This document shows, one piece after another, positions 2,151 to 21,688 of a DNA stretch of 64,000 nt. The DNA is from Oscillospiraceae bacterium. Lineage in GTDB: Bacteria; Bacillota; Clostridia; Oscillospirales; Oscillospiraceae. Under the pieces are notes generated by a model that did not search any database, was not told the DNA's origin, and saw only the letters and a list, made by a program, of their open reading frames with translations. A program made the position numbers and the translations under genes. Numbering within the stretch: position 1 is the stretch's first letter; each line of letters begins with the position of its first letter. Location of the stretch: positions 61,896 through 125,895 of the forward strand of contig JAFPWF010000021.1 in NCBI GenBank assembly GCA_017395085.1, given 5' to 3'.

Positions 2151-2363
2151 TCAAATCATGATCTTGCCGGCCATCTCTTTGCTGATGGCCACGCGGGACT
2201 CTTTGATCTTGACGATCAGGTTCCCGCCGATGGTGTTCATCACCGTAACGGCGCCTCCCACCGTAAAGCCCATGTCCTCCAGGTGCTTTTTCATTTCCGG
2301 ACTTCCACCGACCCGCTTGATAACAGCTTCTTCGCCCGGATCTGCCAGTATCAGGGGCATCAT
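2151..2363 (-). CDS. feoA: FeoA-family protein, first gene of the feo operon
   Basis: 70 residues, ATG 2363 preceded by GAGGAGG at 7 bases; ATG 2360 is an alternative. The sequence shows the FeoA pattern (LADPGEEAVIKRVGG, LEDMGFTVGGAVTVMN, NLIVKIKESRVAIS) but is clearly diverged from the neighbouring FeoA, for instance lacking the P-x-GDP-I-E motif. Two separate FeoA proteins before one FeoB is a recurring arrangement in Clostridia; they may form a heteromeric Feo complex (inference). Transcribed first from the promoter at 2455-2483. Confidence 0.93.
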   Translation of the reverse strand: MMPLILADPGEEAVIKRVGGSPEMKKHLEDMGFTVGGAVTVMNTIGGNLIVKIKESRVAISKEMAGKIMI

Positions 2364-2395: not shown

Positions 2396-2413
2396 GGTTA
2401 AATTTCCTTAACC
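2396..2413. promoter_or_regulatory. Second, weaker DtxR-type operator in the feo leader
   Basis: GGTTAA-ATTTCC-TTAACC is an 18-bp perfect inverted repeat between the promoter and the first feoA. Its core GTTAA-N6-TTAAC has the same geometry as GTTAG-N6-CTAAC with one base changed per arm, so it may be a secondary site for the same regulator (inference). Confidence 0.45.
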
Positions 2414-2429: not shown

Positions 2430-2447
2430 GGTTAGTTCTCACTAACC
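2430..2447. promoter_or_regulatory. DtxR-type operator of the feoAAB promoter
   Basis: GGTTAGT-TCTC-ACTAACC is a perfect inverted repeat starting 8 bases downstream of the leftward -10 box, so it covers the transcription start. The 16-bp core at 2431-2446 recurs with the same 6-4-6 spacing at 12007, 12183 and 35234. Confidence 0.8.
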
Positions 2448-2483: not shown

Positions 2484-2554
2484 CCTCTAACTTGCGTTAA
2501 TTCTTATCCTTGCTTTTTTTCGGTTCCCGTGTTATTCTTTTTCTGGTGATGCAT

Positions 2555-2923
2555 ATGACTATTCATAAATCTGCAGAAGACTATCTGGAAGCCATGCTCA
2601 TGCTCCGGGAAGAGCGCGGCTATATCCGTTCGATCGATGTGGCGGAAAAGCTTGGCGTGACCAAGCCCAGCGTCAGCTATGCCACCAAGCGTCTGAGGGA
2701 GAGCGGCTATATCTCCGCGGATCCGGCAGGCATGATCGTCCTGCTGGAGCCCGGGCTGGAAATTGCCGAGCGCATGTACGAACGCCACAAGCTCCTGACG
2801 GAGCTGCTCATCGGGCTGGGCGTCAATCCGGAAACCGCGCGGGAAGACGCCTGCAAAATCGAGCATGACCTCAGCGTGGAATCTTTTGATGCCATCCGCA
2901 GGCATGCGGAGGAATACCGCTGA
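2555..2923 (+). CDS. DtxR/MntR-family metal-dependent transcriptional repressor
   Basis: 122 residues when started at ATG 2555, chosen because MTIHKSAEDYL then aligns without gaps to MELHRAGEDYL of the paralog at 12248; ATG 2549 or GTG 2546 are possible. The N-terminal winged helix contains VAEKLGVTKPSVSYATKRL, followed by a dimerisation/metal-binding half with ERHKLLTELLIGLGV and a C-K-I-E-H-D motif that supplies metal ligands in this family. It lacks the C-terminal SH3 domain, as in MntR. Divergent from feoAAB and next to a matching operator, it is the obvious candidate to repress feo when Fe2+ (or Mn2+) is high. No clear ribosome binding site is visible. Confidence 0.9.
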   Translation: MTIHKSAEDYLEAMLMLREERGYIRSIDVAEKLGVTKPSVSYATKRLRESGYISADPAGMIVLLEPGLEIAERMYERHKLLTELLIGLGVNPETAREDACKIEHDLSVESFDAIRRHAEEYR

Positions 2924-3003: not shown

Positions 3004-3612
3004 TTACAGCTTCCTGATGCAGAAGTCACAGCGTTCCGCGCCCTTGCCGAGCGTGCCGCTCCTCTCAAAGATCAGGCCCGGCAGATGACCGTAGATTCTT
3101 TCGTCATTTTCGCAGAAGATCCTGGTGAGCTCCGGACAGCCGAGCTCTGTGAAAGTCCTGCAGTACGGGCAGGCGGTGACGTCCATTCGGTATTCGCCTT
3201 TCTTCTTCGGGTAGAAAGTGTTCTGAAAGCCGTTTCCCGCTCCGAACACCTTCTTTGTTAACGGGTCCCAGACCTTGACGAAGAGGCTTTGCATGCCCGG
3301 CAGCTTCATCATGTTTTGGAGTATCTTTTCAATTCCCGCACAGGTGCGGACGGCGGCGTCTTCAATCACCCGATACGCTTTCTCCCGGCCGATCACGTCC
3401 TTCAGGCTCAGATAGATTGCCGCCGACGGAAGGATTCTGCTGTCCGTATGAACGTGCACTCCCTTGGGAAGCGAACTGTACCGGGCCAGAAACCCTTCGA
3501 GCTTCGCCGTCGCCTCCCACCACAGCGCATCGCTTTGGGCTTTCGGCAGGGTTTTATCCATTTCGGCCTTGATCGTGGCCTTCTTTTTCATGATTTTTTC
3601 TGCAGTGTTCAT
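3004..3612 (-). CDS. ATC-hydrolase-like cysteine-rich protein A
   Basis: 202 residues from ATG 3612 (GAGAGG about 7 bases upstream; ATG 3627 has no good site). It resembles the family annotated as L-2-amino-thiazoline-4-carboxylic acid hydrolase (PF14196), whose real substrates are largely unknown. The N-terminal half is a helical, charged segment; the C-terminal half carries TACPYC, then FCEND and a terminal CDFC. The same C ... C-x2-D ... C-D-x-C pattern occurs in the proteins at 5832 and 11324, suggesting a shared metal or thiol site. It is the last gene of the leftward block and is followed by a strong terminator. Confidence 0.75.
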   Translation of the reverse strand: MNTAEKIMKKKATIKAEMDKTLPKAQSDALWWEATAKLEGFLARYSSLPKGVHVHTDSRILPSAAIYLSLKDVIGREKAYRVIEDAAVRTCAGIEKILQNMMKLPGMQSLFVKVWDPLTKKVFGAGNGFQNTFYPKKKGEYRMDVTACPYCRTFTELGCPELTRIFCENDERIYGHLPGLIFERSGTLGKGAERCDFCIRKL

Positions 3613-3666
3613 CTTTGCGCCTCTCATTCTTTCATTAAAGGGTTTTTAACCGTATTTGCCGGCTTC

Positions 3667-4461
3667 CTACTTTTTCCCTGCCAGCAGCGCGGAACCGGAG
3701 AGGGCCATCCACCTGGCCTCACCGGGAGACATGAACATGCCCCTTGTCGTGTCAACCAGTTCAACCTGCTCATATCCCATGGCGCGGAGCTTTTGGACAA
3801 AGGCCTGCATGTCGCCATACTTCGCCTTGGAGAAAATGTCGTGCAGGGCGAATGTGCCGCCTTTTTTCAGCACCCGCAGCGTCTCCAGCAGGATCTCCTG
3901 GCGGTCGCTGCTGGGAATGTTGTGGTAGACGTAATTGCTGGTGACGGCGTCAAAGCTCTCGTCCGGGAAGTCCAGCTTCAGGGCGTTTCCCTTCCGGAAC
4001 TCCGTGTTCCCGCTGACGCCCTCGGCTTTCGCGTTCGCTTCACAGAGGGGTTTGTTGAAGGAGGCATATTCCTTTCCCCAGCGGTCGATGCCGATGAAGC
4101 GTGCCTGCGGATTGCGCCTGGCGCAGGCGATGGCCAGCGCGCCGCTTCCGCAGCCCACATCCAGCCCGGTACCGCCTTCCGGGAGCTTAACATGCTCCGC
4201 AATGCCCTCGATGATCTGGCGGGACATCTGCCGTTTGCCGTCGTAGGAAAAGGCCCGGTACATGAGCCCCATCCACAGCGCGGCTCCGCCCGCAGCCGTG
4301 CCCGCAATCAGCAGGATGCCCGTCGACGCCGCTTTCACAGTCTCGTTCTTGATCAGCCCGGTGCAGCCGGTGACGGCAGCCAGCCCGAAGCATCCGATCG
4401 CACCTGCCAGTGTCCCGAGCACCATACCCTTCGGCATCCAGTTTTTGTAATCCGGTTTCAT
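3667..4461 (-). CDS. Membrane-anchored class I SAM-dependent methyltransferase
   Basis: 264 residues from ATG 4461 (a GTG lies directly upstream at 4464). Two hydrophobic segments, about residues 12-36 and 47-67, precede a Rossmann methyltransferase domain with motif I LDVGCGSGALA at about 100-110, a GIDRWG motif II acidic residue and a conserved LKKGGTFALHD strand. The likely role is methylation of a small molecule or lipid at the membrane; the substrate is unknown. It sits 54 bases upstream of ATC-hydrolase-like gene A. Confidence 0.85.
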   Translation of the reverse strand: MKPDYKNWMPKGMVLGTLAGAIGCFGLAAVTGCTGLIKNETVKAASTGILLIAGTAAGGAALWMGLMYRAFSYDGKRQMSRQIIEGIAEHVKLPEGGTGLDVGCGSGALAIACARRNPQARFIGIDRWGKEYASFNKPLCEANAKAEGVSGNTEFRKGNALKLDFPDESFDAVTSNYVYHNIPSSDRQEILLETLRVLKKGGTFALHDIFSKAKYGDMQAFVQKLRAMGYEQVELVDTTRGMFMSPGEARWMALSGSALLAGKK

Positions 4462-4546
4462 CACAATACCCCCATGTTTTTAATAATATGAACGAAAAAT
4501 CCTGCAGCTGCAGCTGCCTCTACGGCCTGTGGATAATCCGCCGCTG

Positions 4547-5296
4547 TCACAGACTGCGCAGCTCCTGTGCCATCACGTCCGGATGAAAGAGCGCCATGTC
4601 CCCGTGGTCCATCCCCGCAAAGCACTTGAAGACGGTATCCGGGACAAACTTTTTCATATATTTCAGATCCCAGTCTCTGGCCCTGCGTTCTTTTTCCGCA
4701 TACCAGTAATGAACCTTGCCGGGAAACCGCATGATTTCCTCCGGCATTTTATAGTTGTTGCAGGAATCGAAGGTGTTCCAGAGCGTCCTGTATGTGCAGT
4801 GACGGAAAATGTTGGCCACGTACTTCAGATCCTCCTCGCTGAACTGCGAGGAACTGAAGGCTTTTACGATCACTTTTTCCCCGCCGAGTTTCCCGAGCGC
4901 CATCATTCCAAAATCGCGCAGCGCGATAAACCGGGTCAGGATCCACGGCAGCTGATAGGGTGTGATTCCCCCATCCAGAATCGTATTCTCCGTCTTCAGC
5001 TTTCCGTCCGCGGCTATCCGGAGAGCGATGCTCCCGCCCATGGAGCAGCCGTAGACCGTCTTCACCTGCCGGATTCCCTTTTGCAGAAGGGCATCCGCAA
5101 GCTCCGAAGCGGTCTCCTCGACCGAGCGGAACTCCGAATTGTCCTGCAGGTCATAGCCCGGAAGCGCCGGTATCAGCAGATGAAACTGTTTTTCCAGAAG
5201 CGGGACGACATTTTCAAAATAGTCCCATGTTACCAGCGACGGATGGATCAGCAGGATCCTGTCCGGATTCTCTTTGCCGTACTCGTAGATTCTCAT
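4547..5296 (-). CDS. Alpha/beta hydrolase
   Basis: 249 residues, ATG 5296. The nucleophile elbow is GCSMG with Ser85 at its centre; an early HPSLVTW segment supplies the oxyanion region and GMDHGD near residue 230 the likely catalytic His. No signal peptide. The decayed gene at 12735 begins with the same layout, so it may be a broken relative. It lies 18 bases downstream of a small membrane-protein gene, within the block with methyltransferases and ATC-hydrolase-like proteins; substrate unknown. Confidence 0.85.
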   Translation of the reverse strand: MRIYEYGKENPDRILLIHPSLVTWDYFENVVPLLEKQFHLLIPALPGYDLQDNSEFRSVEETASELADALLQKGIRQVKTVYGCSMGGSIALRIAADGKLKTENTILDGGITPYQLPWILTRFIALRDFGMMALGKLGGEKVIVKAFSSSQFSEEDLKYVANIFRHCTYRTLWNTFDSCNNYKMPEEIMRFPGKVHYWYAEKERRARDWDLKYMKKFVPDTVFKCFAGMDHGDMALFHPDVMAQELRSL

Positions 5297-5314
5297 ACAA
5301 CGCCCGTTCTCTTC

Positions 5315-5821
5315 TCATCCAATCAGCTTCACAAGCCATCCCACCAGAGCGGCGGGGATCAGCGCAAAGATGATGCCGGGAAACAGCATCCCTTTTGCGT
5401 GAAACCATTTCTGATGATATGCCTTGTCCATATGCTCGGTCCCTTCCAGCCGGAACATCGGCAGATTGGCAAACAGCACCCAGTCGAGAAAGCAGGTGTC
5501 ATAGACGCCGATCCATACCATGAGGCCGAAGGTCAGCCAGAAGCCCTGCCGGAAGGTTTCCGCTCCGGCAATCAGTGCACAGACCAGCAGGATGCCGGTG
5601 AAGATCAGAACGCCGAAGCCTTTTGTCAGGATCACATTTTTGGATTTGTAACTCACGTCAACTCTGTCGTGAGTCCTGAAATACTCCTCCTGTATATCGG
5701 GCGGATAATTGTGGATGCTGGCGGGGCTGTATTTTCTGCCCCCGCGATAATAGGTAAAGATGATCGCCGTAAAGATCGCTGCAAAGACGATCATTTCGAT
5801 CAGAATTACCAGGATGTTCAT
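5315..5821 (-). CDS. Small polytopic membrane protein, paralog 1
   Basis: 168 residues with about four membrane helices (near 3-23, 68-88, 92-112 and 145-166). I do not recognise a named family. The segment YDTCFLDWVLF matches YDMVFFDWFLL in the 165-residue protein at 6561, and both are followed by a charged H/Y-rich loop and a final helix, so the two are paralogs bracketing ATC-hydrolase-like gene B. Gap to that gene is 10 bases. Possibly a transporter or membrane anchor for the enzymes of the block. Confidence 0.7.
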   Translation of the reverse strand: MNILVILIEMIVFAAIFTAIIFTYYRGGRKYSPASIHNYPPDIQEEYFRTHDRVDVSYKSKNVILTKGFGVLIFTGILLVCALIAGAETFRQGFWLTFGLMVWIGVYDTCFLDWVLFANLPMFRLEGTEHMDKAYHQKWFHAKGMLFPGIIFALIPAALVGWLVKLIG

Positions 5822-5831
5822 GCTTACACCT

Positions 5832-6545
5832 CTATTTCTTCACACTGATCCAAAGACCGTTATCTGCCTTTTTCAGCTCGTACTCCGCCGCAATCGGATT
5901 CTGATCGCCTGCGATACAGTAATCACAGCATGCTGCCGAGCAGCATGTCCCTTCACGGATCAGGACTGCATGGAGCTTTTGCATGGCCAGATGGTCGCAG
6001 TTGCACATCACAGGAAGCACATCCTCCATCTGATGGCGTTTGGCAAATTCCGCATTCGGACACTGAGTAAAGCTGTACCGGACTACACAGTTCTCCTTGT
6101 CGTACTCGAAACCTCCCATGCGGAACGATCCTGGAAACCTTTTGATCTCCTCCGTCCGGATATCGCTTGTCTTTTTGAAGATTCTGCCGGCCAGCCGGTT
6201 GTCCGGTTTCCGGTTCAGGTTGAATATCCTGCCGAGCAGATCAAAACTGCTCATAAAGCAGTTGTAAACGTCCTGCTGGATATCTTCGATTGGAGGCTTG
6301 TCCGGAACAACTGCATACCAGGCAAAGATCAGGATCGGGTCGTAGATGCTGACCGTGATCTTTAACCCGGCAAGCGCAGGTTCATCCTTCAGGTATTCAC
6401 AGTATTGAAGCTGTATTTTCTCCCAGAGTTCAGCGGCCGTCTGTTCATCGTAATAACGGCGCAGGAGTTTCTGCACGCACTTTTTGGCTTTCTTCGTATA
6501 GACCGCATGCTTTGTGCGGTCGAAAGGCAGATCTTTTTCCAGCAT
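5832..6545 (-). CDS. ATC-hydrolase-like cysteine-rich protein B
   Basis: 237 residues, ATG 6545. It shares with the proteins at 3004 and 11324 the order TQCP, then MCNCD (C-x2-D) and finally CCDYC, fitting PF14196-type ATC-hydrolase-like proteins. Extra Cys residues (GTCCSAACC) precede the last motif. There is no signal peptide, so it should act in the cytoplasm. It lies between the two paralogous membrane proteins with gaps of 10 and 15 bases, so all three are surely co-transcribed. Confidence 0.75.
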   Translation of the reverse strand: MLEKDLPFDRTKHAVYTKKAKKCVQKLLRRYYDEQTAAELWEKIQLQYCEYLKDEPALAGLKITVSIYDPILIFAWYAVVPDKPPIEDIQQDVYNCFMSSFDLLGRIFNLNRKPDNRLAGRIFKKTSDIRTEEIKRFPGSFRMGGFEYDKENCVVRYSFTQCPNAEFAKRHQMEDVLPVMCNCDHLAMQKLHAVLIREGTCCSAACCDYCIAGDQNPIAAEYELKKADNGLWISVKK

Positions 6546-6560
6546 GGTTTCGGACCTCCG

Positions 6561-7058
6561 TCAAAACATCGTGCAGATCCAGGCCGCCAGCGCAGAGGCC
6601 GCCGGGAAGATGACCAGCAGTTTTAACAGCTGACTTTTGATGTTGTATCCATACTTTCTGCCGTTGTACACACTCTCCACCTCAGGGTAGTAATGCTGGA
6701 AGAAGTGAAACCTGCAGAGAAGAAACCAGTCAAAGAAAACCATGTCGTACGCTTTATAGATCGTAAAGATCAGCACAAAGCGCAGGAAAAACTGGATAAA
6801 GGTAAAGCCGCTTCGGAAACCGTCCCAGACTGAGATCACGCCCACGCCCAGTATCATCAATACGCCGAGGATCAGCAGCACCCAGCCCATGGCTCTGGCG
6901 CCGCAGAACAGTTCCCTGTCTCTCGGTACAAAGACCTCCAGGGCCTCTTTCGGGGCGGATGAGAAAAACTTCTTGTCCTGAATAAAGGCAACTGCCGCAA
7001 TCAGCAGGAGCGTGATCGCCCCGCAGAATATGATTGCCAGAAATACCGTTAACAGCAT
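6561..7058 (-). CDS. Small polytopic membrane protein, paralog 2
   Basis: 165 residues, ATG 7058, with about four hydrophobic segments (2-27, 56-78, 86-106, 143-162). It shares the YDxxFxDWxL motif and topology with the protein at 5315. Function unknown. The 140-base gap between this gene and 7199 is the largest in the block, so a second promoter may exist here, though no convincing -10/-35 pair or DtxR-type operator is seen in it. Confidence 0.7.
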   Translation of the reverse strand: MLLTVFLAIIFCGAITLLLIAAVAFIQDKKFFSSAPKEALEVFVPRDRELFCGARAMGWVLLILGVLMILGVGVISVWDGFRSGFTFIQFFLRFVLIFTIYKAYDMVFFDWFLLCRFHFFQHYYPEVESVYNGRKYGYNIKSQLLKLLVIFPAASALAAWICTMF

Positions 7059-7198
7059 GCTGTTCTCCTTCCGTTTTTAAAGGTCTTCCTGCAGGCTGGA
7101 TAGCTGATGTTCACCTGCCGACGAATCCTGTTCCCTGTGGTAATTTCATTCCGTCGAATCGCGGTTCGATTGGCAGTCCCGCTCCCGGGGCTGCTTTT

Positions 7199-8104
7199 TT
7201 ATGCCCTCATCCGGCGGACCATCAGATCCCAGCCCTCTTTTGCCTCGCGGCAAAGCGGGAAGACGGGGTAGCAGTGGAACATTCCCTCACCGACAATCAG
7301 TTCATAGTCGACGCCGTACTTCTTCATGGCCGCTTCGAATGACGGCGCGCAGGCGTACAGGGTTTCGTCGCTGCCATAGATCAGCGTGACTTTCGGGCAG
7401 TTGGTAAAGTCGCCTTTCTGCAGCCAGATCATATAGTCCGGTACGCTTCCGTCCCCGTGACGCATGATCTCCACAGCGGTCTTCATGTACTCCGCCGGGA
7501 TTGCCACGTCCTTTTTATCCAGCTCCAGCATCCGTTGCCATTCCTCTTCCGTCTCCACGCAGGTGCCGGGGGAAATCGCCATGATGCAGCCCGGCATCGG
7601 CGTGTCGCGGTGCCCGTCGTTGATATACGGCACCATGCCGAGCGCCAGATTGCCCCCGGATGAGGTTCCCAGCACGGAAATATGCTCTGCGGAATAGTCC
7701 TGCAGCATCACACGGTAGGTCTCATGGATCATTTCATAGGCCTTGGTCAGAGGGTAGTCCGTACACAGCGGATAATAGGGTACATACAGGTCAAGTCCGG
7801 TTTCTTTGGCAAAGCGAAGCGCCTTCTTAATCGAACCCGGTCTCGGCGCGCTGATCATGCCGCCGCCGATCAGGAAAAGATTGGCCCGGTCGCATCTCTC
7901 CTTATGGATCAGCTTCAGGACGGGAAACCCCATCACCTCAATGCGGCTGATCCGGAAGGCGTCGTCCTTGAGTTCCGGAATGCGGTTTTTGGCGTTTTCC
8001 CGCCTCCGGTTTTCCAGCAGTTCCTCCGTACTCATGCCGGCCCAGCGCTTTTTGATATTTGCGGCCTTTACCAGCCGCTTGAGGATCTCATATTTGAGCG
8101 ACAT
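7199..8104 (-). CDS. Alpha/beta hydrolase, HSL/acetyl-esterase type
   Basis: 301 residues from ATG 8104, with GGAGGG 6 bases upstream. The oxyanion segment LIGGGM (about 78-83) and nucleophile motif GTSSG (146-150, central Ser148) are those of hormone-sensitive-lipase-like carboxylesterases; YGSDE supplies the acid and MFHCYP the His. Cytoplasmic, probably cleaving an ester or amide in a small molecule. It is 25 bases downstream of a methyltransferase gene in the metal-regulated block. Confidence 0.87.
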   Translation of the reverse strand: MSLKYEILKRLVKAANIKKRWAGMSTEELLENRRRENAKNRIPELKDDAFRISRIEVMGFPVLKLIHKERCDRANLFLIGGGMISAPRPGSIKKALRFAKETGLDLYVPYYPLCTDYPLTKAYEMIHETYRVMLQDYSAEHISVLGTSSGGNLALGMVPYINDGHRDTPMPGCIMAISPGTCVETEEEWQRMLELDKKDVAIPAEYMKTAVEIMRHGDGSVPDYMIWLQKGDFTNCPKVTLIYGSDETLYACAPSFEAAMKKYGVDYELIVGEGMFHCYPVFPLCREAKEGWDLMVRRMRA

Positions 8105-8129
8105 GCTTATCCCTCCGTACACACTTCGA

Positions 8130-8759
8130 TCAGGAAGCTTTTCTCGCCAGCACGCAAATCCAGGGCTTTCTGCCGTGATGATCCGTGTTCACCTCGGTGA
8201 AACCGGCTTTGTGCAGCGCGGCTTCGATTTCTTCCGCTTTGTACACCTTCATGCCGTCGATGATTTTTTCAAACTTGGTTCCCGTTGCATCCAAACCGTC
8301 CGATTCGTTACAGATCAGGAAAAGCCCTCCCGGCTTGAGCACGTGCGCAACCTGCTCAAAGCACCGTTCCAGACCCGGCCAGAAATAGACGGTTTCAAAG
8401 GCCGTGGCAAGCTCGAAACCCTCTGCCTCAAGCCGCAGATCCGACACGTCCCCCTGCTGCACGGTGCAGCGTCCCGCATCAATGCTTTTTTTGTTGTAGG
8501 AGGCTGCCTTCTCCACAGAAAGAGGGGAGTAATCAATTGCCGTCACATGGGCGTAGGGATATTTTTTCAGCATTTCTCCGGCGTTGCGGCCTGCGCCGCA
8601 GCCAAGGTCAACGATCTGATCCGGCCGGAGCGGAGGCAGATGTGTAAAGCCCCAGTCCGCGAGTTCCCCGTGGCCGCTGTTCATGCCTTGCAGCATCAGC
8701 GCGCCAAGTATGCCTTCCGGTTTCCTTGTCTGATTGAAAAAGCGCTTCAGAAGTCCCAT
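8130..8759 (-). CDS. Class I SAM-dependent methyltransferase
   Basis: 209 residues, ATG 8759. Motif I VDLGCGAGRNA is at 50-60, followed by the acidic AIDYSP of motif II and LKPGGLFLIC of motif V. The N-terminus has no membrane segment. Gaps of 9 and 25 bases join it to its neighbours. The family is too broad to give a substrate, but it is one of four methyltransferases encoded in this block. Confidence 0.87.
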   Translation of the reverse strand: MGLLKRFFNQTRKPEGILGALMLQGMNSGHGELADWGFTHLPPLRPDQIVDLGCGAGRNAGEMLKKYPYAHVTAIDYSPLSVEKAASYNKKSIDAGRCTVQQGDVSDLRLEAEGFELATAFETVYFWPGLERCFEQVAHVLKPGGLFLICNESDGLDATGTKFEKIIDGMKVYKAEEIEAALHKAGFTEVNTDHHGRKPWICVLARKAS

Positions 8760-8768
8760 CTTTTCCCC

Positions 8769-9449
8769 TCACTTTCTGCACCGGAAGCAGCCGATGCCCT
8801 CAACACTTGTCACGTTGACTTCGCTGTATATGCCTTTCAGGCGCTCGCGCAGGCTGCTCTCCGTTTCAAAGGGCGGTGTGAAAAAGCCTTTTTGCACGTA
8901 CAGGTGATCAATGAACCAGTCCGTCCGGGCGCAGCCGCCCCGGATATAGAAGCAGCCGCAGAAGACGCCGCCCGGTTTCAGAACGCGGAATGTTTCGCGG
9001 TACGCCGCCTCTTTATCCGGAAAGGCATGAAAGCCGTTCAGGGAGAGGACAATGTCAAAGGACTCGGACTCGAACGGGAGCGCTCCCACATCTCCCCGGC
9101 AGAATGTGATGTTTCGGATCCCGGCCGAATCCGCGCGTTTCCACGCCGCAGCCATCATTTCCGCAGAGTAGTCCAGGCAGGTGATCTCCGCATCGGGGAG
9201 TTCTTTATAGACCGGCATGGTCAGCACGCCGGTGCCCACAGGCACTTCCAGGAGCTTCCCGGAAAAGCCTTCCGGCACGCCGGAGAGCGCCCGCTCGAGG
9301 TAACGGAGATTTTTCTCCCCGTCCATGTTCCAAACCATGCGGCAGATCGCCTTCCCGGGGAGGGTGGAATAGGTCATCATGCCGTCATAAAAACTGGCGT
9401 TGTCCCCGGTCAGTTTATAGGCGCTTTTGATCTGATCTCTCCTTGTCAT
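8769..9449 (-). CDS. Class I SAM-dependent methyltransferase (UbiE/COQ5-like)
   Basis: 226 residues, ATG 9449. Motif I is the less usual LLEVPVGTGVLT (66-77), with CLDYSAEM and RVLKPGGVFCG further on. A Cys-rich tail (GIGCFRCRK) and several internal Cys residues are notable in a block rich in Cys-containing enzymes. Only 4 bases separate it from the upstream gene. Substrate unknown. Confidence 0.87.
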   Translation of the reverse strand: MTRRDQIKSAYKLTGDNASFYDGMMTYSTLPGKAICRMVWNMDGEKNLRYLERALSGVPEGFSGKLLEVPVGTGVLTMPVYKELPDAEITCLDYSAEMMAAAWKRADSAGIRNITFCRGDVGALPFESESFDIVLSLNGFHAFPDKEAAYRETFRVLKPGGVFCGCFYIRGGCARTDWFIDHLYVQKGFFTPPFETESSLRERLKGIYSEVNVTSVEGIGCFRCRK

Positions 9450-9453
9450 CTGA

Positions 9454-10287
9454 TCACTCCCTGAACTCTATCTTTATGATCTTCATCTTCACCATGCTGT
9501 CACAGAAGCGGATCATCAGCCTGTGGAACAGGCCGACGTCCCGATAAATATCCCGGTAGCCGCGCATATAGCTTTTTGCCGTGACGGACGCAAAGCGATT
9601 GCTCCATCCGCGTATTTCCGTCTCGTCCTCCAGCGAAAAGAAAGCGTGCACATCGGTGATCCCTGCCTCCCGGAGCCAGGTTTTCCGCATCAGCTTCGCA
9701 CCGCGCTCATTGCAGGCGTCGAAGGCCAGCACTGCGCCGGGAAAGCGTTCCGCCATTGCGGCAAAGAGCTTTTTCACCTCTTCGGTCCTGAAGTAATAGA
9801 ACACGCCCGCGGCATAGAACACCGCGCCGTCGGAGGCGTCAATCGCATCCATCCAGGCAAAGTCGTTGAGATCGCAGGCAATGTTCTCTTCCCGCTCGCC
9901 TGCGGGCAGGAGTTCGTTGCGCACGGCGATCACACCCGGGAAATCGAGGTTATATCCGCTGCAGAGGCCGTTGTCCGCCTTGGAGAAGGTGTCGTCCAGC
10001 CCGCAGCCGAGGTTGACCACGGCGGCTTTCGGATGCTCCTTCAGATAGCTTTCAACCTCGCATCGAAGATCATATTGCCTTTGGGCCACCTCCAGCGCGC
10101 CGAAGAGTCCCGCCGGGGACTCCATCTTTTTCCGCTTCCCGGAAAAGTCGTAGTCCAGCGATTCGCAGATCCGTTTTGCCTCGGGGTCGGAAAAAAGCAG
10201 GGGAAAATGCTCCGAGCACACCAGCCGCCCGAAAAGCGGGATAATCAGAGTTTCCTGTACACTGTTTGCCTCAATGTGATAGTTCAT
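9454..10287 (-). CDS. Class I SAM-dependent methyltransferase, LCMT/TcmP-like
   Basis: 277 residues, ATG 10287. The motif VVNLGCGLDDTF (90-101) followed by GYNLDFPGVIAVR, and the AAGVFYYF segment, are typical of the leucine carboxyl methyltransferase / tetracenomycin O-methyltransferase superfamily, which usually methylates carboxylates or hydroxyls of small molecules in bacteria. It lies 9 bases downstream of the ZIP transporter gene. Confidence 0.88.
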   Translation of the reverse strand: MNYHIEANSVQETLIIPLFGRLVCSEHFPLLFSDPEAKRICESLDYDFSGKRKKMESPAGLFGALEVAQRQYDLRCEVESYLKEHPKAAVVNLGCGLDDTFSKADNGLCSGYNLDFPGVIAVRNELLPAGEREENIACDLNDFAWMDAIDASDGAVFYAAGVFYYFRTEEVKKLFAAMAERFPGAVLAFDACNERGAKLMRKTWLREAGITDVHAFFSLEDETEIRGWSNRFASVTAKSYMRGYRDIYRDVGLFHRLMIRFCDSMVKMKIIKIEFRE

Positions 10288-10296
10288 GACTGCCTC

Positions 10297-11076
10297 CTAT
10301 TCCAGCGCCACGTCCAGCGCCATCATCAGACTGAAGCCCACGGCAAAAAGCAGAACGCCGATGTTGGAATGTCTGCCCGCGGACATTTCCGGGATCAGTT
10401 CCTCCACGACCACATAGAGCATAGCTCCTGCCGCGAAAGACAGCAGCACCGGCATGGCAGGCACGATCTGCGCCGCAGCGAGGATCGTAAGCGCCCCGAA
10501 GATCGGCTCCACTGCCCCGGACAGTACGCCCAGCCAGAAGGATCTCTGCCTGCTTGCACCTTCTGCACAGAGCGGCATGGAGATGATCGCGCCTTCGGGG
10601 AAGTTCTGAATGGCGATGCCGAGTGCGAGGGCGAGCGCACCGCCTGCCGTGATCTCACCGCAGCCGCTGTGAAGCCCCGCATAAACGACGCCTACCGCCA
10701 TGCCCTCCGGAATGTTGTGCAGCGTCACAGCCAGAACCAGCATGGCCGTGCGGGGCAGGTGGCTCCTGGGACCTTCTTCCTGATTGATGCTGCGGTGCAG
10801 ATGCGGGATCACATGGTCGAGCAGCAGCAGAAACAGGATGCCAAGCCAAAATCCGAGAAAAGCAGGCAGGAACGCCCAGTGCCCCAAGGTCGCAGATTGC
10901 TCGATGGCAGGGACAATCAGGCTCCAGATCGAGGCTGCAACCATCACGCCGGCGGCAAAGCCGGTCAGCGCCCGCTGCAGCGATACGGAAAAATCCCGCC
11001 GCAGGAAAAACACGCATGCGGAACCGGACGCTGTTCCGAGAAAGGGAATCAGCAGACCCGGGATCAAAACGCTCAT
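10297..11076 (-). CDS. ZIP-family divalent metal transporter
   Basis: 259 residues, ATG 11076, overlapping the preceding stop as ATGA. About eight membrane helices; the metal-binding helices carry HNIPEG (120-125) and QNFPEG (157-162), the ZIP TM4/TM5 signatures (the usual TM5 HxxxE is partly changed to N/E here). A His-containing cytoplasmic loop lies between TM3 and TM4. ZIP proteins import Zn2+, Fe2+ or Mn2+ into the cytoplasm. Placement under a DtxR-type operator favours Fe2+ or Mn2+ (inference). Confidence 0.93.
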   Translation of the reverse strand: MSVLIPGLLIPFLGTASGSACVFFLRRDFSVSLQRALTGFAAGVMVAASIWSLIVPAIEQSATLGHWAFLPAFLGFWLGILFLLLLDHVIPHLHRSINQEEGPRSHLPRTAMLVLAVTLHNIPEGMAVGVVYAGLHSGCGEITAGGALALALGIAIQNFPEGAIISMPLCAEGASRQRSFWLGVLSGAVEPIFGALTILAAAQIVPAMPVLLSFAAGAMLYVVVEELIPEMSAGRHSNIGVLLFAVGFSLMMALDVALE

Positions 11077-11327
11077 TTCCGGCTAAACCAGCCCTTTTTT
11101 TGATAGGGTTCCGAAACAGAGCCCGTGCAGGTGTAGCCTGTCGCGGCTATGGCGTCTTTCAGGAGCTGTTCATCGACCGCGTCCTCTGTCAGGAAACTGG
11201 CTTCGCCTTTCGTATGAGAGGCGGAGACTTTCTTCGCGTCAGGGACTGCTTTGCGAATCACATCATTGATGTGCGCCTCGCACATGGAGCACATCATCCC
11301 GTCGATTTTTAATGTTGTTTTGATCAT
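11073..11327 (-). CDS. Heavy-metal-associated (HMA) domain protein, CopZ-like
   Basis: 84 residues, ATG 11327, overlapping the upstream stop (ATGA). A ferredoxin-like HMA domain of about 68 residues has the soft-metal site GMMCSMCEAH with Cys13 and Cys16; a short basic tail follows. Such proteins bind Cu+ or Zn2+ and shuttle it to a partner. It is coupled at both ends to ATC-hydrolase-like gene C and the ZIP transporter, so the three are likely made together. Confidence 0.9.
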   Translation of the reverse strand: MIKTTLKIDGMMCSMCEAHINDVIRKAVPDAKKVSASHTKGEASFLTEDAVDEQLLKDAIAATGYTCTGSVSEPYQKKGWFSRK

Positions 11328-11968
11328 TTTTCAGCTTTTCCTTTCTTCTTGTATCCGCAGTCGCAGTAGGGGCCGCCGGAAGCCAGCGTGTATTCCCGCA
11401 CAAAATCAGTCGTGCCGCCCGCCTCGCTCATCGTGTAGTCCAGCCGGCACATGGCAGGGACGAGGTCACCGAGTCCCAGCTCGCCCATCAGCGTGCAGAT
11501 GCCGCATTTTGAAAAGCGGGCTTCGTAGCCGCTGCCGTCGGCGTAGGGAAGATATTCCATATTCCACGAATACGGGTTGCGGTCTGCCGCACGGAAAGCG
11601 GCGGTGCGCTTCATGCCCTCCATGTCTTTCGGGCTGAACTTCGCTTTCCCGCTCTTCCGGCAGAACCATTTCATCGGCCCGGTCATCATGGCTGCGGCAT
11701 AGTATGCCGTCAGTTCATCCACGCCCGGCCGGCTCGGCATGCTCAGCACATGGGCCGCAAGCATGGTGCAGCTGACAATGTTCATCTGAAAGCGGTCGCC
11801 CTTTTCAAAGTCAGGCAGCTTTCCGATCAGCTCACGGTATTTACCGTGGGCTTTCTTTGAAATCCCTGCTGCTGCGGTGCGGCCGTAGCCCAGCACGTCC
11901 GTCAGCCTGTCCCGAAAGCTCCTTTCGAAAAGCGCCCACATCCCCGCGGGCATTCCCAGGTACCTCAT
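11324..11968 (-). CDS. ATC-hydrolase-like cysteine-rich protein C, first gene of the block
   Basis: 214 residues, ATG 11968 with AAGGAG 8 bases upstream. It belongs with the proteins at 3004 and 5832: SKCGIC, then MCRLD (C-x2-D) and a final YCDCGYKKK. PF14196-like; the literature enzyme opens a thiazoline ring, but these gut paralogs are uncharacterised. As the promoter-proximal gene it follows a leader of about 55 bases containing a GTTAG-N6-CTAAC operator, so its expression should respond to the DtxR-type regulator. Confidence 0.75.
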   Translation of the reverse strand: MRYLGMPAGMWALFERSFRDRLTDVLGYGRTAAAGISKKAHGKYRELIGKLPDFEKGDRFQMNIVSCTMLAAHVLSMPSRPGVDELTAYYAAAMMTGPMKWFCRKSGKAKFSPKDMEGMKRTAAFRAADRNPYSWNMEYLPYADGSGYEARFSKCGICTLMGELGLGDLVPAMCRLDYTMSEAGGTTDFVREYTLASGGPYCDCGYKKKGKAEK

Positions 11969-12006
11969 GTGTGAAACTCCTTGTCAGGATAAGAATATTT
12001 ACAGGA

Positions 12007-12022
12007 GTTAGAAATATCTAAC
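12007..12022. promoter_or_regulatory. DtxR-type operator of the leftward block
   Basis: GTTAGA-AATA-TCTAAC is a perfect 6-4-6 inverted repeat 7 bases downstream of the leftward -10 box, covering the expected start site. It matches the feo operators in arms and spacing. Confidence 0.8.
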
Positions 12023-12029
12023 TGAAATG

Positions 12030-12057
12030 AGTATAGCACAACTATCACCGTTTGAAA
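12030..12057 (-). promoter_or_regulatory. Promoter of the methyltransferase/ATC-hydrolase/ZIP block
   Basis: On the minus strand TTTCAA (12057-12052), a 16-bp spacer and TATACT (12035-12030) point at ATG 11968. Confidence 0.6.
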
Positions 12058-12150
12058 ATACCCTTTTCACATTTTTCGCCGGATCGGTATTTCGATTTGA
12101 AAATGCGTTTGATTCATGACGAAGAATGGCCGTCAACCTGAAGCAGGCTA

Positions 12151-12179
12151 TTGACAGCAGAGAAATCATCGTTTATAAT
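12151..12179 (+). promoter_or_regulatory. Promoter of the second DtxR-type gene
   Basis: Consensus TTGACA (12151-12156), 17-bp spacer, consensus TATAAT (12174-12179), directly followed by an operator, so strong autoregulated expression is expected. Confidence 0.85.
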
Positions 12180-12182
12180 ATG

Positions 12183-12198
12183 GTTAGAGATATTTAAC
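12183..12198. promoter_or_regulatory. DtxR-type operator (autoregulatory)
   Basis: GTTAGA-GATA-TTTAAC has the 6-4-6 layout with one mismatch between arms and begins 3 bases after TATAAT, covering +1 of the regulator gene. Confidence 0.7.
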
Positions 12199-12247
12199 TA
12201 GCGTAAGATATTTCTTCTTAAAAATGATCGGGGGAGGGACATGCTCT

Positions 12248-12622
12248 ATGGAACTGCACAGAGCCGGCGAGGACTATCTGAAGGCGATTCTGATCCTGCA
12301 GAAGCAGAATCACGCTGTGCGTTCAATGGATGTGGCAGAAATGCTGAGCGTGACCAAGCCCAGCGTCAGCAGGGCCGTGAAGCTCCTGCGTGAGGGCGGT
12401 TTCCTGACGATGGATGCGGATAAGCGGATCAGCCTGACGGAAGCGGGACGGGAGGCTGCCGAACAGGTTTTCGAAAAACACCGCGTCCTGACGGAGTGCC
12501 TGGTTACCATGGGCGTTGATCCCGGAATTGCCGAAAAGGACGCCTGCAGGATGGAACACCTGATCAGCCCGGAAACGCTGGAACAGATGAAAATCTATGT
12601 CGGAAGGGAGCTTGCGGTATGA
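12248..12622 (+). CDS. DtxR/MntR-family metal-dependent transcriptional repressor, paralog 2
   Basis: 124 residues from ATG 12248, chosen because GGGGAGGG lies about 11 bases upstream and the start aligns with the paralog at 2555; an ATG at 12224 has no site. The winged helix includes VAEMLSVTKPSVSRAVKLLRE, and the dimerisation half has EKHRVLTECLVTMGV and the C-R-M-E-H metal-ligand motif. It is close to the first regulator throughout. Its promoter carries its own operator and it is divergent from the ZIP/HMA block, so it probably controls that block and itself. Which paralog binds which site, and whether Fe2+ or Mn2+ is the co-repressor, cannot be read here. Confidence 0.9.
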   Translation: MELHRAGEDYLKAILILQKQNHAVRSMDVAEMLSVTKPSVSRAVKLLREGGFLTMDADKRISLTEAGREAAEQVFEKHRVLTECLVTMGVDPGIAEKDACRMEHLISPETLEQMKIYVGRELAV

Positions 12623-12720: not shown

Positions 12721-12734
12721 CGGAGGTCATTACG

Positions 12735-12968
12735 ATGCAGTTTGAGGAAATGGGCAATCGGTCGGGCAAGACCCTGATGTTGCTGCCGGGGACGGCATGA
12801 GATTATCAGACAAATTTCGGTACGGTTCTGGACCGATTGGGCGTGAAATATCACCTGATCAACGTCAACTATGACGGCTTTGTTCGATATGCAGCACGAG
12901 CAATGACTTTTCGGTGGGGAGCAGTATACCGTGCCTGTGCTGATACCATCCGCCCTGTCATGATGAGC
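12735..12968 (+). pseudogene. Decayed alpha/beta hydrolase gene
   Basis: A good start (CGGAGG 8 bases before ATG 12735) begins MQFEEMGNRSGKTLMLLPGTA, the first strand and oxyanion loop of an alpha/beta hydrolase, but an in-frame TGA stops it at 12798. The same frame continues with DYQTNFGTVLDRLG and a HLINVNYDGF strand, as in intact relatives such as the one at 4547, and then loses sense after about 12885. The catalytic Ser motif and the rest are missing. It therefore looks like a hydrolase gene disabled by a nonsense mutation and a large internal deletion, once co-transcribed with the DtxR-type gene. Confidence 0.65.
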
Positions 12969-13045: not shown

Positions 13046-13819
13046 TCAGAACGGCGCTCCCGCTTCGCCGTACACGGCAATGTAGGTTTTTTCCTCCACG
13101 TCAAAGAGCCTGCGGATGTAGTCGTCCCGGAAGATTTCCTCCGGCTTGCCCTCCCGGTCCACATGGCCGTTCTTCAGGCACAGGATCCGGTCGGGGATTA
13201 TTTTCGCCAGGTCCAGCTCGTGCAGGGACAGGACCACGGCAATATTCTGTGTTTCCGCCAGTTTGCGCAGCAGAAGCAGGAATTCGAGCTTGTGCCGGAT
13301 GTCCAGGAAAGAGGTCGGCTCGTCCAGCAGGAGCAGCTTCGGCTGCTGGCAGATCGCCCTTGCCAACAGGACGCGCTGCCGCTGTCCGTCGCTGATCCGG
13401 GTAAAATCTTCATCCCGCAGGAAGGCGGTTTCCGTCATCTCCATGCTGCTGCGGACCACGGCGCGGTCCTCCTCCGACAGGATACCGAGACGGCCGGTAT
13501 AGGGATAGCGCCCCATGGCGACCAGTTCCCCGCAGGTCATCAGTTCCGGCGTTGGCCTTCCGGTCAGGACGGCCGCGCTGCAGCGGGCAAGCTCCTGTTC
13601 CGGGATGCGATCCAGTTTCCGATCTCCTAGGAAGATGCTGCCCTTCAGCGGGGGGATCTGGCGCATCAGCGTTCTCAGCAGTGTGGACTTTCCGGAACCG
13701 TTCGGGCCGATGAGGCACAGGATCCGGCCCTCTTCCAGCTGCAGGGAGATTCCCTCCGCCACACATCTGCTGCCGTAGCCGATGGAGAGATTTTCCGTTT
13801 TCAGAACACAGGTGCTCAT
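13046..13819 (-). CDS. ABC transporter ATP-binding protein, FecE/BtuD type
   Basis: 257 residues, ATG 13819 overlapping the permease stop (ATGA). Walker A GPNGSGKST at 38-46, signature ISDGQRQRVLLARAI, Walker B LLLLDEPTSFLD and the H-loop SLHELD are all present. This is the ATPase of a type II importer for siderophores, haem or corrinoids. Last gene of the 19-kb operon that starts with the cobalamin riboswitch, which argues for a corrinoid or tetrapyrrole substrate (inference). Confidence 0.95.
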   Translation of the reverse strand: MSTCVLKTENLSIGYGSRCVAEGISLQLEEGRILCLIGPNGSGKSTLLRTLMRQIPPLKGSIFLGDRKLDRIPEQELARCSAAVLTGRPTPELMTCGELVAMGRYPYTGRLGILSEEDRAVVRSSMEMTETAFLRDEDFTRISDGQRQRVLLARAICQQPKLLLLDEPTSFLDIRHKLEFLLLLRKLAETQNIAVVLSLHELDLAKIIPDRILCLKNGHVDREGKPEEIFRDDYIRRLFDVEEKTYIAVYGEAGAPF

Positions 13820-14838
13820 CGCTCCGCTCCTTTCCGGTGGGTCAGCAGCACCCAGATCACGACCGGGGCGCCGAAGACCGCCGTGACCGAACTGATGGAG
13901 AGCTCCGTCGGGGCGAACAGGAATCTCGCCAGCAGGTCGCAGAACAGGCAGAAGACACTCCCGCCGAGGAAGCAGGCCGGTATCATCACCAGAGGTTTAG
14001 CGGTCCGGAACAGGCGCTTCATCAGCTGCGGCACGGCGATCCCCACAAAGGAGATCGGCCCGGCAAACGCCGTCACGCAGGCGGACAGGATGCTGGAGAG
14101 CAGGATCAGCGCCGCGCGGAAGCGCCGGATGTTGACGCCCATGCTCTGCGCGTAGCTTTCGCCAAGGCGGTAGGCGTCCATGGGTTTTGCAATCAGCACG
14201 GTGAAGGCCATGGCGGCCGCAACGGTCAGCGCTGCGACACCCAGATCCTCCCAATCGATGCCGGAGAAGCTCCCCTGCGACCAGTTGTGCAGGTTTACGA
14301 TGTTGGAGTCGTCCGCAAAGGTGACGGCGATTTCCGTCACGGCGGAGCAGATATACCCGATCATAACCCCGCAGACAATGAGCATGCCCATCCCGCGCAG
14401 CCTTCTGGAAGCCAGCAGCACAAAGCTCATTGAGAGCATGGCGCCGCAGAACGCCGCACCGATCATCCCGGCTGAACTGATCGCGATCCGGTGGCTGAGG
14501 CAGAAGATCATGCTCAGGGCGACCGTCAGTTTTGCCCCGGAGGAAATGCCGAGGACAAACGGACCGGCGATCGGGTTGCCGAAGAAGGTCTGCAGCAGGA
14601 AACCCGAAACGGAGAGCGCCCCGCCCAGCAGCGCGGCTGCAAGCAGACGAGGCAGACGGATGCTGCGCACGATGCTGGCAGCCATGCTCCCGCCTTGTCC
14701 GGGCAGCAGGGCAGACAGAATCTCCTGCACGCCGAGGCGGCTGCTCCCGACCAGCAGGTTCAGCACCCCCAGCCCGAGCAGCAGCACCGCCAGCAGTGCA
14801 AAGCAGGCTCCTGTTCTCCTGTTTCGTTGGTCTGTCAT
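13816..14838 (-). CDS. ABC transporter permease, FecCD/BtuC family
   Basis: 340 residues from ATG 14838 (GAGGAG 6-7 bases upstream); a farther ATG at 14880 would overlap the preceding gene and is less likely. About nine to ten helices with the FecCD hallmarks GSSRLGVQEILSALLPG, IVRSIRLPRLLAAALLG, LQTFFGNPIAGPFVLGISSGA and FAGPISFVGIAVPQLMKR. It forms the membrane channel for the ATPase encoded next and receives substrate from the binding protein encoded upstream. Confidence 0.95.
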   Translation of the reverse strand: MTDQRNRRTGACFALLAVLLLGLGVLNLLVGSSRLGVQEILSALLPGQGGSMAASIVRSIRLPRLLAAALLGGALSVSGFLLQTFFGNPIAGPFVLGISSGAKLTVALSMIFCLSHRIAISSAGMIGAAFCGAMLSMSFVLLASRRLRGMGMLIVCGVMIGYICSAVTEIAVTFADDSNIVNLHNWSQGSFSGIDWEDLGVAALTVAAAMAFTVLIAKPMDAYRLGESYAQSMGVNIRRFRAALILLSSILSACVTAFAGPISFVGIAVPQLMKRLFRTAKPLVMIPACFLGGSVFCLFCDLLARFLFAPTELSISSVTAVFGAPVVIWVLLTHRKGAER

Positions 14839-14848
14839 TCCGTTCTCC

Positions 14849-17794: not shown

Positions 17795-17811
17795 GGTTTT
17801 TCTTCTCCTTT

Positions 17812-18555
17812 TCATATCTCAACACGCAGGCGTGTCATGCACCGGTTCAGGACCTCGTCAAAGCTGAGGCCGTTTTCTTCCGGCCGCCGGAGCACGATCA
17901 GCTCCGTACCGGTCTCCTTGGCGGCTGCCGCCTTTTCGGCAAAGCCGCCGGCTTCTCCGCCGTCCTTACTGACCAGGAAGCGGATTGCGTACTGCCGAAT
18001 CGTGGCTGTGTTCATTTCTTTGGAAAACGGCCCCTGCATGGCGATGATGTTCCGGTGGGGGATCCTCATCTCCTCGCAGGCGGCGATGCTCTCCATGCTT
18101 GGCAGGATCCGCGGGAACAGGCGCTCCGGCGGGAGGGCCGCAAAGCTCCGCAGCTCCTTTGCCCCGGTGGTCAGCAGGATGTTTCCCTCGCGCTGCGCCA
18201 GGTAAGCCGCAGCTTCCGCGGCGCTTTCAACCGAATGTGCATCTCCAAGCTCGCTGTCCGGGCGTTTCAGCCGCAGCAGGGGAGTGTTCTCCGCTTCGCA
18301 GGCTGCTTTCACGCTCTCGCTGATGTGCCGCGCATACGGGTGCGTGGCGTCCACGCAGAGGGCCGCGCCCCGCAGCAGCTCCCGCTTCTCTTCCGGAGAA
18401 AGCGGCCCGACCCGGACCTGAATGCCGGGGAGTTCTCCCTGTTCTTCTCTGCCGTAATCGCTGGCCACGCAGACGGTGACCTCCGCCCCCGCCTCCGCCA
18501 GCTCCCCGGACAGGCGCCTTCCCTCGGTGGTCCCGCTGAAGATCACGATTTTCAT
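17812..18555 (-). CDS. cbiJ: Cobalt-precorrin-6A reductase
   Basis: 247 residues, ATG 18555 overlapping the cbiH stop (ATGA). The N-terminal IVIFSGTTEGRRL nucleotide-binding loop, VDATHPYARHISESV and LLTTGAKELRSF are characteristic of CbiJ/CobK. It reduces the corrin ring of cobalt-precorrin-6A using NAD(P)H in the cytoplasm. Confidence 0.95.
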   Translation of the reverse strand: MKIVIFSGTTEGRRLSGELAEAGAEVTVCVASDYGREEQGELPGIQVRVGPLSPEEKRELLRGAALCVDATHPYARHISESVKAACEAENTPLLRLKRPDSELGDAHSVESAAEAAAYLAQREGNILLTTGAKELRSFAALPPERLFPRILPSMESIAACEEMRIPHRNIIAMQGPFSKEMNTATIRQYAIRFLVSKDGGEAGGFAEKAAAAKETGTELIVLRRPEENGLSFDEVLNRCMTRLRVEI

Positions 18556-19280: not shown

Positions 19281-19281
19281 C

Positions 19282-21687: not shown

Positions 21688-21688
21688 C

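Follow-up and report, generated by a model that had tools for sequence, protein, structure and literature searches.

The stretch of DNA analysed here, 64,000 nucleotides long and referred to as the window, comes from an Oscillospiraceae bacterium (GenBank assembly GCA_017395085.1, contig JAFPWF010000021.1, positions 61,896 to 125,895) whose genome is a 2.52-Mb draft, 84.5% complete. It carries a block of thirteen leftward genes built around proteins of the ATC_hydrolase family, for which DtxR-type metal control is well supported by predicted operator sites. All thirteen open reading frames (ORFs) named in the original prediction are present at 3004-11968, behind one promoter-like site, and their family labels are borne out by Pfam scores, the membrane label of T1 and T2 coming from a reading of the sequence. 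The genes had been described as mostly 25 bases or less apart, which is true of 9 of the 12 junctions; from A1 downward the computed distances are -4, -4, 9, 4, 9, 7, 140, 15, 10, 18, 82 and 39 bases. The gaps of 140, 82 and 39 bases leave room for internal promoters, and a consensus scan lists none on the minus strand in these longer gaps.

Relatives were collected with the first gene of the block, A1, whose profile found 471 related stretches in a named genome collection. The best 80 loci were retrieved and queried with the window proteins at thresholds of 45% identity and 60% coverage; the family counts, the unit enrichment and the operator-position test given below are confined to these 80 named loci. 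They include several near-copies, as seen in the A1 tree, and are thus not 80 independent cases. The genes of the block, with the number of loci in which each family recurs, are as follows.

11324..11968, minus strand: A1, ATC_hydrolase family (PF14196), Pfam 78.1 bits; the query that defines the 80 loci
11073..11327, minus strand: HMA-domain protein, overlapping A1 by 4 bases, Pfam 27.2 bits (cut-off 24.8); 32/80 loci
10297..11076, minus strand: ZIP-family metal transporter, Pfam 76.9 bits; 24/80 loci
9454..10287, minus strand: M1, LCM-type S-adenosylmethionine (SAM) methyltransferase, PF04072 34.3 bits; 43/80 loci, the commonest window family beside A1
8769..9449, minus strand: M2, class I SAM methyltransferase (Pfam); 37/80 loci
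8130..8759, minus strand: M3, class I SAM methyltransferase (Pfam); 31/80 loci
7199..8122, minus strand: H1, alpha/beta-hydrolase, hormone-sensitive-lipase-like, Abhydrolase_3 66.4 bits; 18/80 loci
6561..7058, minus strand: T1, small membrane protein by sequence reading; 16/80 loci
5832..6545, minus strand: A2, divergent ATC_hydrolase-family protein, PF14196 32.7 bits (cut-off 28.1); 8/80 loci
5315..5821, minus strand: T2, small membrane protein by sequence reading; 8/80 loci
4547..5296, minus strand: H2, alpha/beta-hydrolase, Abhydrolase_6 48.3 bits; 4/80 loci at 45% and 15/80 at 25% identity
3667..4464, minus strand: M4, SAM methyltransferase, Pfam 71.5 bits; 26/80 loci
3004..3627, minus strand: A3, ATC_hydrolase family, the final gene of the block, PF14196 93.8 bits; 13/80 loci

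Control of the block is read from the space between A1 and R1, a divergent gene encoding a DtxR-family regulator. The palindromic pattern GTTAGANATNTNTAAC, allowing up to two mismatches, has five matches in the window against 0.28 expected, a number reached by 0 of 100 shuffles. Two places, 12007-12022 and 12183-12198, account for four of them, each being matched on both strands, and the match there is free of mismatches. A DtxR-type operator at the block promoter had been predicted, and the candidate site does lie below that promoter, facing the regulator gene. The sites and the genes that they would serve are listed here.

12030..12058, minus strand: promoter-like site of the block, TTTTCA-17-TATACT, 9 of 12 consensus matches, with TG before the second hexamer
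12007..12022, unstranded: block operator GTTAGAAATATCTAAC, 0 mismatches, 7 bases below the -10-like hexamer
12151..12179, plus strand: promoter-like site of R1, a perfect TTGACA-17-TATAAT, 12 of 12 consensus matches
12183..12198, unstranded: regulator operator GTTAGAGATATTTAAC, 0 mismatches on the plus strand, 3 bases below the -10 hexamer
12224..12622, plus strand: R1, DtxR-family regulator divergent from the block, PF02742 57.0 and PF01325 41.8 bits; 12/80 loci
2510..2923, plus strand: R2, another DtxR-family regulator, past the last gene of the block (Pfam); 12/80 loci
2151..2363, minus strand: feoA, the first ferrous-iron uptake gene beside the block, Pfam 61.9 bits; 11/80 loci
2431..2446, unstranded: feo operator-like site, matching the loose pattern only, 8 bases below the -10 of TTGACA-17-TAAACT (2483-2455, minus strand)
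2397..2412, unstranded: second feo operator-like site, loose pattern

Eight promoter-like sites occur in the scanned stretch against 4.9 in shuffles, and the argument is accordingly one of position and not of number: the geometry of operator and promoter would suit a repressor acting by blocking initiation. R1 carries both domains of the DtxR family. The best NCBIfam model of both R1 and R2 is MntR (89.9 and 93.7 bits, short of the equivalog cut-off of 153), with the DtxR model behind it at 52.1 and 29.4 bits. R1 contains the motif ACRMEH at a position where DtxR has ACRWEH and MntR has Glu in place of Cys; the motif would fit with iron as the predicted signal.

Similar sites recur elsewhere in the same genome. 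At up to one mismatch the strict pattern has five places, against 0 (forward) and 1 (reverse) for a reversed control: the block, R1, a divergent pair of Aminotran_1_2 and PNPOx-like genes, a DUF6796 operon and one place without a clear target. In the divergent pair (contig C85, L110 3617-5659), a mismatch-free operator lies between the Aminotran_1_2 enzyme, dependent on pyridoxal phosphate (PLP), and the PNPOx-like gene. The DUF6796 operon (contig C46, L111 3358-4888) has two DUF6796 genes behind paired operator-like sites, the second of which matches the loose pattern 56 bases on; the first part of the second gene matches DUF6796 and the remainder MatE. DUF6796 genes also adjoin A1 in other genomes. 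The loose pattern GTTARNNNNNNYTAAC is not enriched in this genome (9 places against 8 for the reversed control), and the feo sites of the window therefore rest on their promoter position and on stricter sites in relatives, where the feoA promoters of four loci (L036, L039, L040 and L071) carry operator copies with 0 or 1 mismatch.

Across the 80 loci there are 91 operator places at up to two mismatches, compared with a mean of 7.5 in two dinucleotide shuffles. An operator stands at the start of the A1 unit in 26/80 loci and before 13/688 control genes, a lenient control in that any unlabelled genes were taken, many of them internal to operons. The pattern was drawn up after inspection of the window and of intergenic regions from loci with a DtxR gene; the loci without a called DtxR gene are thus the cleanest test, and 17 of these 66 have an operator at the start of the A1 unit. 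One relative (the genome of L104) has seven operator places at up to one mismatch, against 0 for the reversed control. They lie before the A1 block; before a 94-amino-acid ORF followed by DUF3793 and flavodoxin genes; between a DUF6110-P-type ATPase pair and a divergent alpha/beta-hydrolase gene, abh7; before a gene distantly related to H1 (30%); before a second operon, which has M1-like and MBL-like (metallo-beta-lactamase-like) genes (39 and 40%); before an ATP-binding cassette (ABC)-type ATPase; and before a 236-amino-acid ORF of no assigned family. That second M1-like/MBL-like operon lies on contig C240 (L151). In an Erysipelotrichaceae genome (L059), the single operator place is at the start of the A1 block (reversed control 1 and 0), and one operator place in Faecalibacterium I4-1-79 precedes a DUF3793 gene. 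Iron is likelier than manganese or zinc as the predicted signal, because related sites are found ahead of feoA, both in the window and in relatives, and ahead of DUF3793-flavodoxin in a second genome.

The genes of the block also travel together. Scattering of these genes among relatives had been set beforehand as the finding that would overturn the prediction; in the 80 loci they co-occur far beyond chance. At least one of the other twelve block families is present in 67/80 loci and at least three in 46/80, in a gene order that varies from locus to locus. Compared with the rest of the same loci, the A1 unit is strongly enriched in M1, M2, M3, MBL, HMA and A3 (Fisher p 8e-8 to 2e-5) and more weakly in M4, T1, T5, H1, H2, abh23 and BAAT (p 6e-4 to 0.03). 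Statistics on units and neighbours refer to 73 loci, the 7 of the 80 without a separately called A1 ORF being excluded, and they are lower bounds, as the home-made ORF caller misses or merges genes. Within the 73, the HMA gene is directly beside A1 in 15 cases; ZIP, HMA, a P-type ATPase or ABCa (one half of a recurrent ABC pair) is near A1 in 43; and 24 have one or more of Feo, DtxR, flavodoxin and DUF3793 (flavodoxin in 11, DUF3793 in 12). The ABC, DtxR, Feo, flavodoxin and DUF3793 genes are mostly or wholly outside the A1 unit.

A wider survey of neighbouring families took in the window and 94 loci, duplicates included (L089 and L094 appear to be the contigs of L013 and L011). Recurrent additional families are, among enzymes, an MBL-fold hydrolase, abh23 and BAAT (both by Pfam), abh7 (by similarity, no Pfam family matched), methyltransferases, further ATC paralogues and an ApbA-like reductase, and, among transporters, a P-type ATPase with DUF6110 and the ABC pair. 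The labels FeoB, abh7, MT30, MT37 and TetR rest on sequence reading or BLAST similarity and not on a family search. Several of these families are fused into single ORFs: A1 with the methyltransferase MT17 (L100), H1 with M4 (L035), and M4 with the MBL-fold hydrolase in both orders, one in L094 and the other in L033 and L104. The fusions of L100 and L033 were checked with Pfam, and a few fused ORFs may be sequencing errors.

A1, A2 and A3 all score above the PF14196 cut-off of 28.1 bits. An alignment of 74 proteins, 30 of which come from paralogous groups only 15-26% identical to A1, shows six invariant residues (C155, C174, D177, R191, T194 and C202 in A1 numbering); the set of three Cys and an Asp suggests a metal site. 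No sequence relative of A1 is found in the PDB up to E 10. In a published comparison (PMC5847659), the ATC hydrolase domain is related to the V4R and HNOB domains, and a reference quoted there describes the one cited ATC_hydrolase activity, that of a Pseudomonas enzyme. In hhalign profile comparisons, sets of 74 and 18 ATC proteins showed no significant match to five V4R proteins (E 0.024 and 0.044; 0.59 for an unrelated control), the V4R set coming from five of eight loci, with the domain not found by motif search in the other three. A co-expression paper on F. prausnitzii (PMC9674144) places an ATC-hydrolase gene group in one module with the numbers 7 and 14, which we take to be genes found and genes in the group; this fits with co-expression and gives no function.

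As for the other proteins, H1 matches solved esterases in a PDB comparison, M1 has no PDB sequence relative up to E 1, and M4 has an N-terminal hydrophobic stretch, recognised by eye, and is fused to hydrolases elsewhere. T1, T2 and a scanned member of the related group T5 match no Pfam family. The three (T5 at L011 11590-12084) align as one small membrane-protein family in which D113 is invariant and D108 and F90 are near-invariant (T2 numbering).

Some relatives add a transporter. For the recurrent ABC pair, a single representative per half was compared with solved structures, and among the bacterial half-transporters in the best 60 matches, ABCa is closest to chain A of 6p6i/8vsi (331 bits, against 313 for IrtA and 233 for MsbA) and ABCb to chain B, YbtQ (289 bits, against 257 for Sav1866). 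Chain A is taken as YbtP because it is the partner chain of YbtQ in the yersiniabactin importer. ABCa is present in 17 of the 73 loci with a called A1, and in Faecalibacterium the pair follows an AraC-type gene. A family labelled LP34 adjoins the YbtPQ-like pair in three loci (L014 12691-13407, L063 11384-13474 and L078 3531-5180); in two of them it is part of a larger protein with GLUG motifs, and the shared part matches no Pfam family. A ZinT-like reading of LP34 is not supported by Pfam and was set aside.

Taken together, these observations are tentatively best explained by an island for metal starvation whose enzymes tailor or dismantle some small metal ligand, a reading to which we would give somewhat less than an even chance. 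The block would most likely be one instance of a modular island, with iron as the metal in short supply; the grounds are the predicted operators on the block and R1 promoters, the related sites before feoA and the repeated joint occurrence of the families across many gut and rumen bacteria. The repressor would keep the operon shut while Fe(II) is sufficient; in iron shortage the operon would open and the enzyme set would be made: three ATC-hydrolase-like proteins, four methyltransferases, two esterase-like hydrolases and small membrane proteins. The substrate of these enzymes may be a small metal ligand, which they would tailor or take apart and which would probably contain a thiazoline, thiol or ester group. 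Transport of the ligand would fall to the YbtPQ-like ABC pair in relatives, and handling of the metal to ZIP and the HMA protein. Here we infer iron as co-repressor, a substrate common to the enzymes, the nature of that substrate as a metal ligand and the ligand's direction of travel.

We lean towards uptake and dismantling of ligands made by other organisms over production of an own ligand, because the block has no scaffold synthetase and queries for nonribosomal peptide synthetases (NRPS) match almost no relative loci. By Pfam, none of the thirteen proteins is a scaffold synthetase of the NRPS or NRPS-independent siderophore (NIS) type; an NRPS condensation query matches 0/80 loci and an adenylation query 1/80, at the edge of the locus and on the other strand. 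IucA/IucC has no match in the window genome (84.5% complete). One 3.8-kb contig of that genome (C6, L124) consists of a single open piece of NRPS sequence that includes an adenylation domain and two condensation stretches. The proposal that the block makes or dismantles a methylated metal-binding small molecule is supported by the YbtPQ-like pair beside some relatives, but no scaffold enzyme was found, and it stays a matter of inference.

A bolder version of the metal-ligand island, which we regard as doubtful, is an undescribed class of metallophores that needs neither NRPS nor NIS: about 20 families around an ATC-hydrolase-like core would be shuffled among bacteria of gut and rumen, with Faecalibacterium among them, and each host would have either its own iron or zinc ligand or a kit for dismantling the ligands of its neighbours.

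Several observations weigh against the metal-ligand island as proposed. At threshold, 13/80 loci carry none of the other twelve families, and 10 of the 73 called A1 genes are alone in their unit. For ZIP, A2, T2, ApbA and the P-type ATPase, enrichment in the A1 unit falls short of significance (p 0.07 to 0.6). The overall top PDB matches of both ABC halves are full-length P-glycoproteins, most relatives have no ABC pair within the retrieved stretch, and the window genome, at 84.5% completeness, has no close copy of the pair (best 32%). Under the rule of the operator-position test, 54/80 A1 units have no operator site. The strict operator is not in excess in Faecalibacterium I4-1-79 (2 and 2, against 2 and 1 for the reversed control) or in Lachnospiraceae GAM79 (0 and 2, against 1 and 3). 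With MntR as the top NCBIfam model of both regulators, the signal could be manganese. Finally, methyltransferases and alpha/beta-hydrolases are generic enzymes.

Other explanations draw on much of the same evidence. The operon might serve iron-sparing metabolism, replacing or remodelling an iron-dependent cofactor, lipid or quinone step much as flavodoxin replaces ferredoxin, with no metal ligand involved. The like operator before DUF3793-flavodoxin in the L104 genome, the presence of flavodoxin and DUF3793 near A1 and the recurrence of small membrane proteins and DUF6796 proteins would all agree with this, and yet ZIP, HMA, a P-type ATPase or ABCa near A1 in 43/73 loci points to the movement of metal, and such patchiness and reshuffling would be hard to square with a conserved essential step; we regard iron sparing as rather unlikely. 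A role in tetrapyrrole handling is quite unlikely; in it, A1-A3 would bind or cleave a ligand of the haem or corrin type, which the other enzymes would methylate and de-esterify to recover iron or to form a pigment. Cobalamin genes do lie upstream in the window, the ATC hydrolase domain is related to V4R and HNOB in PMC5847659, and tolI, a gene of the ATC-hydrolase family, is within the tolyporphin cluster (PMC8401325). Against such a role stand the non-significant V4R profile comparison (E 0.024 and 0.044) and the local character of the cobalamin neighbourhood, the four queried upstream genes being found in 0/80 loci at 45% identity.

We consider it improbable that the block makes a small thiol or thiazoline metabolite de novo, for competition and not for metal uptake, with DtxR-type control acting as a stress cue. 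Many swappable tailoring enzymes, the patchy distribution, the placement of Lachnospiraceae GAM79 among Faecalibacterium in the A1 tree and the Aminotran_1_2 enzyme behind an operator in the same genome, which we would call C-S-lyase-like, would suit such a pathway; the lack of a scaffold-forming enzyme among the thirteen genes and the near-absence of NRPS condensation and adenylation matches (0/80 and 1/80) would not. Detoxification of metals, metalloids or organic xenobiotics by methylation and hydrolysis is very improbable: the best NCBIfam matches of the HMA protein are mercury-system proteins, far below cut-offs, and the methyltransferases resemble ArsM models, also below cut-offs, but the operator is shared with feo and flavodoxin and the neighbours in relatives are importer-like.

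The surroundings of the block include further iron-related genes. Downstream, R2 is followed by two feoA genes (Pfam), the second of which has relatives in 9/80 loci, and by a feoB read as such from the sequence. Farther upstream (13046-27839) lie a FecCD-type transporter and cobalamin (cbi) genes. A link to a cobalamin or corrin pathway was considered and dropped: CbiK and the substrate-binding protein are found in 0/80 loci, FecCD in 0 at 45% and 1 at 25%, and the ATPase in 0 at 45% and 24 at 25% (generic ABC ATPases), so that these genes are neighbours only. Rfam at gathering scores gives no match in window positions 1-30000. Just beyond R1 lies a remnant of one of the recurrent hydrolases.

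12723..12881, plus strand: abh7 relic, in which only about the first 50 residues match and the rest was not found

Identity over these roughly 50 residues is 73-86% in the best 14 matches, the top match being 85.7% over residues 1-49 of 255. Elsewhere abh7 belongs to the A1-associated gene pool.

The distribution of A1 is patchy. Of 150 genomes of the family, 13 carry it at E 0.001, the window's own included; identity reaches 45% or more in 11 of the 13. In the window's genus, 2 of the 3 genomes listed have it. Its nearest named relatives are mostly rumen and gut drafts labelled Oscillospiraceae, Ruminococcaceae or Eubacteriales. The A1 tree, which leaves out 2 of the 80 A1 rows, groups Lachnospiraceae GAM79 with Faecalibacterium I4-1-79 (96/85) inside the Faecalibacterium group, a position that suggests transfer. 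One carrier bears the name Succinivibrionaceae, probably through a mislabelled bin, its A1 and that of L077 being identical; the Chloroflexi names among the carriers appear doubtful. No match to A1 at E 0.001 occurs in 72,556 plasmid records.

The statement that the block matches no described pathway agrees with the literature searches. Searches on ATC hydrolase, on DUF3793, DUF6110 and DUF6796 and on Oscillospiraceae metallophores, with subscription journals mostly outside coverage, found no such island described, nor did searches at the level of titles on Faecalibacterium iron genes and on YbtPQ in Clostridia. If the metal-ligand island is real, common gut and rumen bacteria, Faecalibacterium prausnitzii included, compete for iron with a chemistry missed by cluster finders based on NRPS and NIS. 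A1 and the operator provide a handle on the system, as the A1-M1 pair is small enough for expression and assay and the operator defines a testable regulon. Such work could assign a physiological role to ATC-hydrolase-family proteins, for which one cited activity has been found so far.

Among known systems, the tolyporphin cluster shares with the block an ATC-hydrolase-family gene, tolI, in a tailoring cluster; hem genes are clustered there (PMC8401325), whereas the queried cobalamin-side genes are not conserved with A1 here. With the PF14196 family at large, A1-A3 share scores above the cut-off and the invariant Cys/Asp/Arg/Thr set. They differ in that several paralogues lie in one operon with methyltransferases, and hydrolysis of 2-aminothiazoline-4-carboxylate would be a candidate activity. 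Yersiniabactin-type siderophore islands have an AraC-type regulator. They resemble the block and its relatives in predicted metal-type control, in an ABC pair near the YbtPQ chains in some relatives and in the AraC-type gene beside that pair in Faecalibacterium; they differ in that the block has no NRPS, the window copy has no ABC pair and the enzymes are hydrolases and methyltransferases. DtxR/IdeR-type iron regulons differ from the present case, in which the predicted target is an enzyme island not described before, MntR is the nearest curated model of the regulator and the metal is a prediction from sequence. What the block would share with these regulons is the palindromic TTAG...CTAA operator, found on its own promoter and on those of feo and DUF3793-flavodoxin.

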